DNA from: Capsulimonas corticalis
GTDB taxonomy: Bacteria; Armatimonadota; Armatimonadia; Armatimonadales; Capsulimonadaceae
Assembly: GCF_003574315.2 (NCBI RefSeq)
Contig: NZ_AP025739.1
Location: 3,658,001 to 3,722,000 of the forward strand
Length of the DNA stretch: 64,000 nucleotides
Direction of reading: 5' to 3'
This document shows, piece after piece, positions 21,495 through 32,040 of the stretch. The notes below the pieces were generated by a model. It made no database searches. It worked only from the letters and a program-made list of their open reading frames with translations, and was not told where the DNA came from. Positions within the stretch are counted from its first letter, which is position 1, and every line of letters begins with the position of its first letter. Made by a program: the position numbers and the translations under genes.

Positions 21495-21764
21495 CCCCGG
21501 CGCTTCTCGTCCTGCCGGGGCAAACCCACCCGGCGCTTCGGGCCACCCTTTCGTGGCAAACCCACCCCCGCGCTACGCGCGACCCCTCCCGCCGACGGGA
21601 AGGGTTGGTAAGATTGCCTCTTACGAGAGACGCCTGCGACATCGATCCGAATCACCCTTCCCGTCGCGGGAGGGGTCGGCCGAAGGCCGGGGGTGGGTTT
21701 GCAAGAGAGGGGGCGCACGAAGCGCCGCAGTGGGTTTGCCCCGGCAGGACGAGAAGCGCCGGGG
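21495..21764. repeat. Large palindromic repeat element, copy 1
   Basis: The 33-base outer arms (21495-21527 and 21732-21764) are perfect reverse complements. Inner arms ACCCCTCCCGCCGACGGGAA and TTCCCGTCGCGGGAGGGGT are near-perfect. The unpaired centre (about 21610-21655) carries GTAAGATTGCCTCTTACGA and CGCCTGCGA, also present in copy 2. It fills most of the 449-base gap 21364-21812 and no gene is called inside. Confidence 0.85.
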
Positions 21765-21812
21765 TGGGTTTGCCAAGTTCCCCGAAGACCGGGCTTAGAT
21801 CACTGAATCATT

Positions 21813-22814
21813 ATGAACATCAAAGACATCGGCGGCGAAGAGGGCTTTATCGAGCGCATGCGGCAAACGCATGCGGGCGCGGTTGGCGACGGGCTGATCC
21901 TGGGGATTGGGGACGACGCCGCGATCTTTGAGACGCCCGCCGGACGTCAGAGCGTTGTCACGACCGATATGCTGGTGGAGCAGGTGCATTTTCGCCGCGA
22001 TTGGAGCGATCCCTATTCGATTGGCTGGAAATCGGCGGCCGTCAACCTCTCCGATATCGCCGCGATGGGCGCCGAGCCGACCTTGGCCTTTCTTTCCATC
22101 GCCTTTAGCCAGGGAGAATCGGTCGAAACGCTGGATCGGATTTACGACGGCTTTTCGGATTGCCTCAATCGCTATGGCGCGCGTCTTGCCGGCGGCGACA
22201 CCAACAGCACGCCCGATGGGATGGTGATCTCCGTGACCCTGATGGGAAGCGTCAAATCCGGGCAGGCGTTCACGCGCTCCGGCGCGCGACCCGGCGATGT
22301 GCTTCTGGTCACGGGCGCGCTGGGGGATTCGGCGGCGGGACTGGGTCTACTTCAAAAGTACGGTCTGGCGCGCTCGGAGAAGGTGGACAAAGACCTGATC
22401 AACCTGCATCGCCGTCCGCAGCCGCGCGTGATGATCTCACGCGTGCTGGCGGAGACCGGACAGGTCCGCGCCGCCATGGATCTGAGCGACGGTCTGCTGC
22501 GGGATGTCAGCAAGCTTTGCGCGGCCTCGCAGGTCGGCGTGCGGATCGATACGGCTCAGCTTCCGATCTCCAACGCCACCCAAAACGCGGCGAAGATGCT
22601 GGCGCAGGACCCGACGCTTCTCGCGTTGCAGGGCGGCGAGGACTACGAGCTTCTGGTGGCCGTTGCGCCCGAAAGCGTGGACGCCGTGCGGGAAGCGGTC
22701 CCGTCGCTGACCGTAATCGGCGAGATTTTGAAGAGCGGACGCCGTATCGTCGCCGCAAACGGCGTGGATGACCTGGACCCCGGGGCCGGCGGCTGGGACC
22801 ACTTCGCCCAATGA
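21813..22814 (+). CDS. thiL: Thiamine-monophosphate kinase
   Basis: A 333-aa ATP-dependent kinase making thiamine diphosphate, the cofactor used by the upstream pyruvate dehydrogenase. Diagnostic features: GIGDDAAIF near residue 31, TTDMLVEQVHFRRDW, a metal-binding NLSDIAAMGAEP, AGGDTNSTPD, VTGALGDSAAGL, AMDLSDGLLRDVSKLC and GGEDYELLV in order. Length matches ThiL. The ATG lacks a clear ribosome site. It overlaps the next gene by four bases (ATGA). Confidence 0.95.
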   Translation: MNIKDIGGEEGFIERMRQTHAGAVGDGLILGIGDDAAIFETPAGRQSVVTTDMLVEQVHFRRDWSDPYSIGWKSAAVNLSDIAAMGAEPTLAFLSIAFSQGESVETLDRIYDGFSDCLNRYGARLAGGDTNSTPDGMVISVTLMGSVKSGQAFTRSGARPGDVLLVTGALGDSAAGLGLLQKYGLARSEKVDKDLINLHRRPQPRVMISRVLAETGQVRAAMDLSDGLLRDVSKLCAASQVGVRIDTAQLPISNATQNAAKMLAQDPTLLALQGGEDYELLVAVAPESVDAVREAVPSLTVIGEILKSGRRIVAANGVDDLDPGAGGWDHFAQ

Positions 22815-23284
22815 TAAGCTTCGAACGAATCCTCTCCACGGAAACCGAAACCCGCGCCGCCGCCGCCGCGCTCGGGCCGCTGCTGTCGCCTGGCGATGTC
22901 CTCTGCCTCATCGGCGGTCTCGGCGCCGGCAAGACGACCTTCACCCAGGGGCTCGCCCATGGCCTCGGCCTCCCGGATGCGGCTGTCCACTCTCCCACCT
23001 TTAACATCGTCTTCGAGCATCGGGACGGCCGTTTACCGCTGTTCCACTTCGACGTTTATCGTCTTTCCGGCCCCGAAGCCCTGCACGACATCGCTTTCGA
23101 CGAATATTTAGACGCCGATGGAGTGACCGTGATCGAATGGGCGGACAAGATCGCCGACGCTTTGCCGGACGACCGTCTGGACCTGCATTTGACAGTGGCG
23201 GGGGACGCGCGCAGCCTCGCCGTCGCCGCGCATGGCGCACGGTCGGAAACATTGGCGGCGCAGTGGCGGGAGGCGCTCGGATGA
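22811..23284 (+). CDS. tsaE: tRNA t6A biosynthesis ATPase TsaE
   Basis: A 157-aa P-loop protein needed for threonylcarbamoyl-adenosine at tRNA position 37. Walker A is GGLGAGKTTFTQGLA at about 35-49, then SPTFNIVFEH, a conserved FHFDVYRLSGPEAL, and EWADKI near 117. Its ATG overlaps the thiL stop and its TGA overlaps the tsaB ATG, so three genes are translationally linked. TsaE acts with TsaB and TsaD; TsaB is next and TsaD is not in the window. Confidence 0.95.
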   Translation: MISFERILSTETETRAAAAALGPLLSPGDVLCLIGGLGAGKTTFTQGLAHGLGLPDAAVHSPTFNIVFEHRDGRLPLFHFDVYRLSGPEALHDIAFDEYLDADGVTVIEWADKIADALPDDRLDLHLTVAGDARSLAVAAHGARSETLAAQWREALG

Positions 23285-24030
23285 TCTTTCTCGCGATCGA
23301 TACGGGAGGGGATTACGCCGTACTGGCGCTGGGGGATACCACGCGGCCGAACGCCGTCATCGGTTCGCTGGCGTTCGAGGGCCGCCGGACCCTGTCCGTT
23401 CAACTGTTCCGCCAGATCGACGCCCTGCTGGCCGCGAACGGCCTCACTCAGGACGCTGTCGAAGCCTACGCCGTCGGCATCGGCCCTGGATCGTTCACTG
23501 GCCTGCGCGTTGGGATGACGACCATGAAGACACTCGCCCAGGTCACCGGCCGCCCGCTCGTCGGCGTCGGCACGCTGGACGCCTACGCCGCGTCCCTGGC
23601 CTTCGAAACGCCGGGACAATGCCTGGTCCCCGTCATCCATTCCCGCCGCAACGAAGTCTATACCGCAATTTATGTGAGTGGGAAGCTTGTCGAGGGACCG
23701 CTCGCCATCGCGCCTTCTGAGCTTGAGCAGCGATTGGAGGCGTATCGCAAAGATAACACCATCGTCTTTGCAGGGGAGCGCGGCGTAATTGCCCAATGCA
23801 ACGGCGTTCCGATCGGCGTTCCCTACGTTCCCGCCGATGGATTGGTAAAACTTGCCGCCGCGCGTCTTGCGCAGGGGGATTTCGACGACCCGTTGGGGCT
23901 GCTGCCGGCCTACGTCGCGCTGCCGACGATTACGACGCCGAAGCAAACCCACCCAAGTGCTTCGGGACTCCCCAGCAAACCCACCCCCGGCCTTCGGCCG
24001 CCTCCTCCCGCCGACGGGAAGGGGTTGTAG
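23281..24030 (+). CDS. tsaB: tRNA t6A biosynthesis protein TsaB
   Basis: A 249-aa ASKHA-fold protein that scaffolds TsaD. The start MIFLAIDTGG overlaps the tsaE stop. Visible: DTGGDYAVLAL (residues 6-16), YAVGIGPGSFTGLRVGMTTMKTLA (about 62-85) and the Ala-rich strand GVGTLDAYAASLA, all typical of TsaB. The last about 30 residues (from KQTHPSASG) are Pro/Ser/Gly-rich and are translated from the left arm of a palindromic repeat (23975-24125), not from a conserved part. The normal C-terminus probably ended near TITTPK, so the repeat has replaced or extended it. Confidence 0.93.
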   Translation: MIFLAIDTGGDYAVLALGDTTRPNAVIGSLAFEGRRTLSVQLFRQIDALLAANGLTQDAVEAYAVGIGPGSFTGLRVGMTTMKTLAQVTGRPLVGVGTLDAYAASLAFETPGQCLVPVIHSRRNEVYTAIYVSGKLVEGPLAIAPSELEQRLEAYRKDNTIVFAGERGVIAQCNGVPIGVPYVPADGLVKLAAARLAQGDFDDPLGLLPAYVALPTITTPKQTHPSASGLPSKPTPGLRPPPPADGKGL

Positions 24031-24125
24031 GATTGACTCTTACGAAAAGCGCTTGCGATTACACACTCTGGAATAACCCTTCCCGTCGGCGGGAGGGGGC
24101 GGCCGAAGGCCGGGGGTGGGTTTGC
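23975..24125. repeat. Large palindromic repeat element, copy 2
   Basis: Arms of about 50 bases (23975-24025 and 24075-24125) start GCAAACCCACCCCCGGCC and are nearly perfect complements. The centre (about 24026-24074) contains GTAGGATTGACTCTTACGA and CGCTTGCGA, matching copy 1. Weaker outer pairing reaches about 23942-24152. The left arm is read as the tail of tsaB and the element lies between tsaB and the converging hldD. Confidence 0.85.
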
Positions 24126-24157
24126 CCCGGGAGGGCGAGAAGCGCCGGGGTAGCTCC

Positions 24158-25123
24158 CTAAACGTAAGGATCGTCCTTTACCAAATATCCCTGAATATAC
24201 CGATCCACGCCCTCTTCCAGACTCAAGAACTCCTCGTCATACCCCGCCGCGCGCAGCTTCGTCAGGTCGGCTTCCGTGAAATACTGATACGCATTGCGAA
24301 TATTCTCCGGGGTGGGGATGTATTCGATCTGCGGCTCTTTGCCCAGCGATTGGAAGATCGCGGCGGCGAGGTCGTTGAACGAGCGCGCTTTGCCGGTTCC
24401 CAGGTTAAAGATGCCGTTTGCTTCCGGATGCTCCAGGAAGAATAAGATCACCTTGCTGAGATCGTCCACATGGATGAAGTCCCGCTCCTGCGCGCCGTCG
24501 GCGTATTCGGCCTTGTGGGACTGGAACAGCTTGATCTTGCCCGTCTCCTGCACCTGGCGATAGGCGTGCCAGATGACCGACGCCATACGCGCCTTGTGGT
24601 ATTCGTTGGGGCCGAAGACGTTGAAGAAGCGCAGGCCGACGATCTTGTCTGTCCAGCCGTGGCGGATCGCCATCGCGTCGAACAGCCACTTGGAGAAGGC
24701 GTAGGGGTTGAGAGGTTTGAAGCTCGGGGTCAGCGCGTCATCATCGCTGAAGCCCAGCGCGCCGTCGCCGTAGACGCTGGCGCTGGAGGCGTAGATGAAG
24801 CGGATATCGTTCTCCAGCGCGATCTGCGCGAGCAGTTGCGTGTAGTGCGTGTTGCTGTCAAGCATCGCGTCCGCGTCGGGCGCCGATGTGTCCGTGATCG
24901 CGCCCAGATGCACGATGGCGTCGATCTCTTCGGCGATCTCCGGCAGCGCTTCCAAAAACGCGATCGGGTCGATGATGTCCCGGTACGCTTTGGCGCGCAG
25001 GTTTTTGAACTTGCCTTCCGATCCGAGCGTATCGACCAGCAATAGGTCTTCATGTCCCGCCGCGTTCAACGCGCTGACGACGACGCTGCCGATAAACCCG
25101 GCGGCTCCTGTGACGACGATCAT
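24158..25123 (-). CDS. hldD: ADP-L-glycero-D-manno-heptose 6-epimerase
   Basis: A 321-aa NADP-dependent epimerase giving ADP-L-glycero-D-manno-heptose for lipopolysaccharide core. N-terminal GAAGFIG (residues 6-12), SSASVYGDG, the catalytic NPYAFSKWLFD (Tyr-x3-Lys) and FFNVFGPNEYHK are characteristic of HldD. The true start follows a GGAAAG site; the frame stays open 52 codons further upstream through a repeat element, and that extension is rejected. The heptose kinase gene lies upstream on the same strand. Their presence suggests an LPS-bearing diderm envelope. Confidence 0.93.
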   Translation of the reverse strand: MIVVTGAAGFIGSVVVSALNAAGHEDLLLVDTLGSEGKFKNLRAKAYRDIIDPIAFLEALPEIAEEIDAIVHLGAITDTSAPDADAMLDSNTHYTQLLAQIALENDIRFIYASSASVYGDGALGFSDDDALTPSFKPLNPYAFSKWLFDAMAIRHGWTDKIVGLRFFNVFGPNEYHKARMASVIWHAYRQVQETGKIKLFQSHKAEYADGAQERDFIHVDDLSKVILFFLEHPEANGIFNLGTGKARSFNDLAAAIFQSLGKEPQIEYIPTPENIRNAYQYFTEADLTKLRAAGYDEEFLSLEEGVDRYIQGYLVKDDPYV

Positions 25124-25137
25124 GGGTGATGCTTTCC

Positions 25138-25276
25138 ACCTACCCCGGCCCCTCGGGCCACCCCTCCCGCAGCGGGAAGGGTAGTAGGATTTTGTTTCAC
25201 GAAGACGGCTTCCGTCAGAAAATCTTTGAAAACCCTTCCCGCTGCGGGAGGGGTGGCCCGAAGGGCCGGGGTAGGT
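25138..25276. repeat. Large palindromic repeat element, copy 3
   Basis: The arms ACCTACCCCGGCCC... (from 25138) and ...GGGCCGGGGTAGGT (to 25276) pair over about 48 bases each with few mismatches. The centre (about 25183-25228) begins AGTAGGATTTTGTTTCACGA and is a divergent relative of the copy 1 and 2 centres. It separates hldD from the heptose kinase. Confidence 0.85.
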
Positions 25277-30104: not shown

Positions 30105-31237
30105 GCCAGAGCGCGCCGATCGACGTGCTGCTGGCTGTGCGTCCCGCCGCCGGCGGCATCCGTCAGCATGTCTTGCAGCTTTTGGAATACGGCGACGCGC
30201 GGCGGTTCTCGCTGTCCATCGCCGCCCCCTCCGAGTTTCTCCAGTCGCTTCCCCGCGATCTTCCGCTCGCCGATGGTATTCCGCTGGAGATCCGCGCGCG
30301 CCTTGCGCCGCTCGCCGATCTGCGCGCGGCCGCCCGTCTTGCCGGTCTCCTGCGCCGCCGCTCGCCTGCTATTGTCCACGCCCACGGCTTGCGCGCCGCG
30401 CTGATCGCCGCGCTCGCGCGCCGTCTCCATGCCTTCCCGCTGATCGTGACCGCGCACAATCTGATTGACTCCGGCGCGGCGACACGTATCGGCCTCGCCG
30501 TGATCGGATCCGCCGCCGATCGTATTCTGGCCGTGTCAGACCCTATTGCCGAGGGGCTTCGCGCGCACGGCGTTTCCGGTCAAAAGATTTCGGTCGTTCC
30601 CAACGGTGTCGATCTTGCGCGATACGCCGCGCCTTTCCCTCAAGCGCGCGCGGCGTTCGGCATCCCGCCAGATGTCTTCGTCGTCGCGGCCGTCGCTCGC
30701 TTGTCGCCGGAAAAGGGGATCGATGTTTTGCTGGAGGCGGCGCTCCAGGCTCCCGAACTGCAATTTGTGATCGCGGGCGACGGCCCGCAGCGCGCCGAAT
30801 TGGAAGCAAAGGCGCCCGCGAACGTCCGCCTTCTCGGCCGTGTGGAGGATGTGCGCGCCGTGCTCTTTGCAGCGAACGCCGTCGCGGTTCCGTCGCGACT
30901 CGAAGGGCAGGGGATCGTCGCCTTAGAAGCGCTGGCCGCGCGCCGTCCCGTCGTCGCCTCCCGCATCGGCGGCCTCGCCGCGATGCTAAGCGACAGCGAA
31001 ACGGCCCTGCTCGTCCCTTCCGAGGACCCCGCCGCACTGGCGGCCGCCTTGCGCCGGCTGGCCGCTGAACCCGAGTTACGCACAAGCCTTGCGAGCATGG
31101 GATACAATCTGGTCAGGGAGCGCTACGATGTGCGTGCGCAGACGGCCGCCGTCGAGCAAATCTATACGAAATTTGCTCCGAGTAGTCCTGGAAAGAGGGA
31201 AGACGCCCCCCGGCCCCCACAGGGGAGCAGACCATAA
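30101..31237 (+). CDS. Glycosyltransferase family 4 protein
   Basis: A 378-aa GT-B enzyme. The start is GTG overlapping the LCP stop. N-terminal acceptor domain with HAHGLRAALIAALARR; C-terminal donor domain with VPNGVDLARY, ARLSPEKGIDVLLEAA, IAGDGPQRAELE and the E-x7-E-type motif EGQGIVALEALAARRPVVASRIGG, all typical of GT4. It probably adds a sugar to a surface polymer moved by the adjacent LCP protein. The final about 17 residues (SPGKREDAPRPPQGSRP) come from a palindromic repeat, so the native C-terminus was likely near YTKFAP. Confidence 0.9.
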   Translation: MSQSAPIDVLLAVRPAAGGIRQHVLQLLEYGDARRFSLSIAAPSEFLQSLPRDLPLADGIPLEIRARLAPLADLRAAARLAGLLRRRSPAIVHAHGLRAALIAALARRLHAFPLIVTAHNLIDSGAATRIGLAVIGSAADRILAVSDPIAEGLRAHGVSGQKISVVPNGVDLARYAAPFPQARAAFGIPPDVFVVAAVARLSPEKGIDVLLEAALQAPELQFVIAGDGPQRAELEAKAPANVRLLGRVEDVRAVLFAANAVAVPSRLEGQGIVALEALAARRPVVASRIGGLAAMLSDSETALLVPSEDPAALAAALRRLAAEPELRTSLASMGYNLVRERYDVRAQTAAVEQIYTKFAPSSPGKREDAPRPPQGSRP

Positions 31238-31989: not shown

Positions 31990-32040
31990 CACTGCGGGCT
32001 GCCGGGTGGGTTTGCCACGCCAAGCGCCGGGTAGGTCACT
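31990..32040. repeat. Half-copy of the palindromic element
   Basis: GCTGCCGGGTGGGTTTGCCACGCCAAGCGCCGGGTAGGTCACT contains the GGGTGGGTTTGCC and AAGCGCCGGGGT-like modules that form the right outer arm of copies 1 and 2, without a matching left arm. Confidence 0.5.

Follow-up and report, generated by a model that had tools for sequence, protein, structure and literature searches.

Three long palindromes in the stretch of DNA analyzed here (the window: 64,000 nucleotides, positions 3658001 to 3722000 of a genome that consists of a single contig of 7,645,051 bp) belong to a dispersed repeat family whose arms also bracket a gene for a DUF559 protein. We propose, with a probability of roughly 0.6, that the three window elements are MITE-like copies, without a gene of their own, in a mobile palindrome family that also has a member carrying the gene for this putative nuclease and that would spread by cutting of palindromes and copying-in at the break. 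The proposal draws on the family and its architecture, on the arms that it has in common with the DUF559 element, on a wide association between DUF559 genes and palindromes, and on the presence and absence of elements at orthologous sites. For this genome, 1.2 Mb of the 7.6 Mb was read as stretches, and genome-wide searches were added.

Three palindromic elements with a conserved center

A preliminary description had placed three long palindromes, with arms and a center, at 21.5, 24.0, and 25.1 kb of the window, and all three are present at those places. The plan of the element (~150 bp) is an arm, a conserved center of ~50 nt, and the complementary arm, the arm itself being composed of a tail (GCAAACCCACCCC), a small hairpin (e.g., GGCGCTTCGCGCC), and a second hairpin (CCCCTCCCGCCGACGGGAAGGG). 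The inner element of copy 1 spans 21556 to 21702 on the plus strand, as do all features below unless stated otherwise. Its left arm (21556 to 21604; tail GCAAACCCACCCC, hairpin 1, and hairpin 2 CCCCTCCCGCCGACGGGAAGGG) and right arm (21654 to 21702) enclose a conserved center, or core, in plus orientation (21605 to 21653; core model match, E = 1.3e-8), the 3' half of which is a variant (ACATCGATCCGAATC). Outer, concentric arms at 21495 to 21529 and 21730 to 21764 surround this element; they are perfectly complementary (100%), as had been claimed, but are 35 nt rather than 33 nt long.

Copy 2 (inner element, 23975 to 24125) has arms of 49 nt that are 98% complementary (23975 to 24023 and 24077 to 24125), a center in plus orientation (24024 to 24076; E = 2.6e-15), and a partial outer arm unit on its left side (23938 to 23965). 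A tsaB-like open reading frame (ORF; 23137 to 24030) runs into this copy, such that the left arm doubles as its C terminus; its final ~30 residues (PKQTHPSASGLPSKPTPGLRPPPPADGKGL) are encoded by the copy 2 element and outer arm (23940 to 24030), and its stop codon lies in the center. In copy 3 (25138 to 25276), arms of 45 nt that are 98% complementary (25138 to 25182, with the ACCTACCCC tail variant, and 25232 to 25276) flank a center (25183 to 25231) that the core consensus matched in both orientations, at a score reached by 0/2,000 shuffles; this center is a diverged relative of the family core. We also considered whether the core is an inverted repeat of itself; the consensus gave no support for this (P = 0.44), and the signal in copy 3 was weak (P = 0.01). 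The supposed half-copy at 31990 to 32040 turned out to be merely two arm-tail fragments on the minus strand (GGGTGGGTTTGCC..GCGCCGGGTAGGTCAC), a relic without a center.

A repeat family of about 100 copies, often nested

The consensus of the center (~50 nt) is TTTGTAGGATTGCCTCTTACGAAAGCCGCCTGCGATAACACACTCTGAAATAA. An 18-nt center pattern, with at most 3 mismatches allowed, had 85 matches in the genome compared to 4 for the reversed-pattern control, and the arm unit had 276 matches compared to 6 for its control. Among 51 complete copies, mean pairwise identity was 0.81 for the center (53 nt) and 0.91 for the arms. Given this identity, the centers are more alike than base composition alone would make them, and the conservation that had been noticed in the window holds across the genome. 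The preliminary description had also called for a count of copies, which comes to ~100 elements in 7.65 Mb; this number is an estimate, since a profile found 16 copies in the first 800 kb and the center pattern found 14. Copies are present in both orientations. The two arms of a copy tend to match, hairpin 1 being of an identical type in both arms in 28/51 copies (13.1 expected). The motif GTAG, which in REP elements lies on the 5' side of the hairpin, is found here at the inner edge of many centers (TTTGTAGG) and at some outer ends and has no fixed place 5' of a hairpin. The sister species (G001) holds the same family, with related centers and other tails.

Many copies are enclosed by further concentric palindromes. 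The outer 60-nt flanks were complementary (score of at least 30) in 25/51 complete copies, compared to 0.1% of random genomic pairs; when left and right flanks were swapped between copies, the value was 23%. Part of the nesting may derive from local duplication rather than from insertion. In an 800-kb sample, arm units within a cluster face its center, and the sample also holds core-less palindromes. Between one arm pair at 230.3 kb (230334 to 230483, G000:C1), a terminator-like hairpin takes the place of the conserved center.

A gene-carrying member encodes a DUF559 protein

Among the arm-unit places listed (the first 100 of 276), two widely spaced convergent arm pairs were found. One holds an IS4-type element within a core-less palindrome (discussed below), and the other is a gene-carrying member of the family (~700 bp, at 1487.6 to 1488.4 kb), in which family arms (ACCCACCCC-hairpin-CCCCTCCCGCCGACGGGAAGGG) bracket a 137-amino-acid DUF559 ORF (PF04480; 119.2 bits versus a cutoff of 20.6). 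The ORF sits where the center would be expected. When the inner ends of this member were compared with the core, one side gave a match reached by 0/2,000 shuffles, and the left side gave a weak one (P = 0.03). Clear DUF559 genes number three in this genome, and 3/3 lie between long inverted repeats, which belong to three different families, each also represented by short gene-less copies. The repeat type of the 797-kb gene has two short gene-less copies plus a fragment in the window at 31200 to 31225, and that of the 2526-kb gene has five gene-less copies of about 200 bp; the family described here is the one that belongs to the third gene. The fragment in the window is a half palindrome (GAAGACGCCCCCCGGCCCCCACAGGGG) of the family bracketing the DUF559 gene at 797.6 kb.

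Annotations still describe DUF559 as a presumed repair nuclease or a domain of unknown function. The predicted structure of a relative (mean pLDDT, 87) matched 3hrl, a gonococcal DUF559 structure (Z = 14.3), the homing endonuclease I-Bth0305I (Z = 10.7), and Vsr (Z = 9.0), and residues D49, E60, D62, and H66 were invariant. By modeled fold and conserved acidic and histidine residues, DUF559 would thus be a nuclease of the EDxHD/Vsr type. One DUF559 gene has been assigned to the EDxHD homing family (PMC9403480), and a Caulobacter DUF559 protein has been reported to act like the mismatch repair protein Vsr (PMC12907096). In open-access papers mentioning DUF559, represented mostly by titles and the openings of abstracts, we found no link to palindromic repeats; an earlier account elsewhere is possible.

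DUF559 genes are associated with palindromes in several phyla

To score the association more widely, we compared the 350 nt on either side of each DUF559 domain for inverted repeats (threshold, at least 36). In Armatimonadota, flanking inverted repeats were present at 37/52 DUF559 loci but at 0/30 loci of Uma2 (DUF820), another small nuclease family, from the same phylum (Fisher P = 2e-11). In a broad set comprising Cyanobacteria, Chloroflexota, Planctomycetota, Spirochaetota, and others, which includes related and hence nonindependent Nostoc loci, 40/75 DUF559 loci reached 36, compared to 1/654 windows shifted along the same loci. Family- and order-level relatives have the same tail-hairpin 1-hairpin 2 arm in different letters (e.g., GAACCTAACCCC-GACGCTCCGCGTC-CCCCTTCCCTGTTAGGGAAGGG). 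These arms are multicopy in their own genomes (24 to 79 matches each, with at most 40 candidates scored) and often form convergent pairs around a center; they had 0 matches in three order-level genomes in which DUF559 was not detected. On a Sphingomonas plasmid (L269:1393-1878), inverted repeats flank a DUF559 gene located between sufB and sufC. The association of DUF559 with palindromes is strong and wide, and its occurrence in several bacterial phyla points to the DUF559 nuclease as the spreader of such repeats; the partner enzyme that the preliminary description had sought appears to be this one, which it did not consider.

Several observations weigh against DUF559 as the driver. Some DUF559 loci lack such repeats (none flank the genes of E. 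coli, Sinorhizobium, Azospirillum, and a P. aeruginosa plasmid), a complete arm-center-arm element lies beside the DUF559 gene in G001 and G002 and not around it, the gene-carrying member resembles the core only weakly at its left inner end, and the Caulobacter protein mentioned above reportedly behaves as a Vsr-like repair enzyme. The second of these, together with the presence in one genome of DUF559 genes within several unrelated palindrome families, would suit a different relationship, in which the palindromes spread by other means and are the target, offering harmless sites where free-standing DUF559 homing genes lodge as guests. However, every DUF559 gene comes with a distinct arm family of its own, which also has gene-less copies, and no other candidate enzyme with these arms was found among the places listed. 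We regard the guest relationship as rather unlikely.

Evidence for mobility

Several observations suggest that elements of this kind move. In four Anabaena/Dolichospermum-type genomes, DUF559 elements (~600 bp) are 93 to 97% identical, and their flanks are largely unrelated. A Cylindrospermum DUF559 element separates two genes whose counterparts in 12 other Nostocales lie only 63 to 326 bp apart, without DUF559. (The site next to this element carries tandem heptamer-like runs, GGAGTTA and CCCAATG, in several other Nostocales [L280-L293].) A copy in the sister species is absent from the orthologous site here (L043), the junction being blurred, and another orthologous site (L046) has a complete copy in that species and a half copy here. 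Target-site duplications were not evident in flanks read by eye, and the orthologous empty sites, including the cyanobacterial ones, were too diverged for exact insertion junctions.

The suggestion that the palindromes spread like REP or MITE elements was partly right: ~100 copies in both orientations and a site that is filled in the sister species and empty here support such spread, but neither a REP/Y1 system nor a classical MITE is supported. Long terminal inverted repeats (the 45- to 49-bp arms) and high copy number would also be expected of a classical MITE mobilized by a DDE transposase that acts on those repeats, but no clear target-site duplication was seen, and among the arm places listed (the first 100 of 276) there was no DDE element with these ends, the partner there encoding DUF559 instead. 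We consider the DDE explanation improbable. One candidate for an autonomous insertion sequence with family ends, 3.2 kb long at 2160 kb, was rejected; it proved to consist of an IS4-type element and an integrase-type transposase, with a core-less palindrome as the insertion site. The IS4-type element (L111:3517-5077) lies in the middle of that palindrome and has its own 9-bp duplication (CGCCGACGG), and its ORF contains a short in-frame repeat (MDGEV).

The preliminary description had also raised a small RNA; conservation of the elements could instead reflect a role for the host, in which they are kept as structured RNAs or bidirectional terminators. All three window elements fold much better than shuffled sequences (z = -10 to -16), such extremely stable folds being in keeping with this idea, as are their positions in the window (intergenic or at gene ends) and the terminator-like hairpin inside the arm pair at 230.3 kb. 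In contrast, occurrence in both orientations, nested and truncated copies, and the absence of a copy from an orthologous site argue against it, and no Rfam family scored above threshold (nothing reached the gathering score, and sub-threshold matches were mostly to eukaryotic microRNA hairpins). We give this explanation little credence, marginally less than the DDE one. Mobilization as REP/REPIN elements by a RAYT (Y1) transposase, which palindromic, multicopy repeats (276 arm units; about 100 elements) and the existence of Y1_Tnp matches in the genome might have suggested, is very improbable, as 0/5 Y1_Tnp matches have an arm unit within 1.5 kb and a different repeat flanks at least one of them. 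The strongest Y1_Tnp gene (L031:1090-2050) lies between inverted repeats of another family (CCGTCCG..GGTGGC..GCCACC..), and the two may form a separate RAYT system.

A model for spread by cutting and copying-in

Returning to DUF559 as the driver, we hypothesize that, at sites that lack a center, the nuclease recognizes the palindromic arm-arm junction, which may be cruciform, and cuts it. Repair of the break would copy in a filled element, either arm-center-arm or arm-gene-arm, and filled sites would be immune to further cutting, such that a few nuclease genes could serve many gene-less copies in trans. Such a cut-and-copy process would account for the conserved center, the matched arms of each copy, the nesting of palindromes, the lack of a clear target duplication, and the many gene-less copies. 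More broadly, the chances seem to us about even that a large class of palindromic repeats with tail-hairpin-hairpin arms, spanning phyla, has DUF559 nucleases as its dedicated drivers, which spread it (a part proposed for RAYTs in the case of REPs) through palindrome cutting and copying-in, and that many GC-rich palindromes so far unexplained in Cyanobacteria, Chloroflexota, Armatimonadota, and Planctomycetota are their gene-less derivatives. The strong, wide association makes two questions testable, in that a single assay could reveal both the DNA that DUF559 cuts and the way in which such repeats spread.

Comparison with known systems

MITEs and the ERIC, Correia, and YPAL elements are about 100 to 200 bp long and have inverted terminal arms and a conserved interior. 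The present family has this size, these arms, and such an interior in common with them but differs in that neither a DDE transposase partner nor a clear target duplication was found. EDxHD homing endonucleases (I-Bth0305I) and Vsr share their fold with the DUF559 model; the known cases are found in inteins or introns or repair mismatches. Unlike those intein, intron, and mismatch repair cases (PMC9403480), the genes described here are free-standing and lie between palindromes. Mitochondrial GC clusters and double-hairpin elements are likewise mobile, GC-rich, and palindromic and can merge with further copies, and intron endonucleases have been proposed to aid their spread (PMC4478555), but these elements are mitochondrial, far shorter, and without a nuclease gene of their own and have putative target duplications. 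CGTC-tagged REPs resemble the gene-less repeats in being palindromic families reported without a dedicated transposase or known mobilizing enzyme (PMC3733652). REP/REPIN elements with their RAYTs (REPtrons) are alike in that short, high-copy-number palindromes form inverted pairs and also enclose the gene of a small enzyme that possibly acts in trans (PMC3116915, PMC3733652). In contrast with those systems, the enzyme here is a PD-(D/E)XK/Vsr-type DUF559 protein rather than a Y1 HUH transposase, and the repeats are distinguished by tail-hairpin-hairpin arms and concentric nesting.
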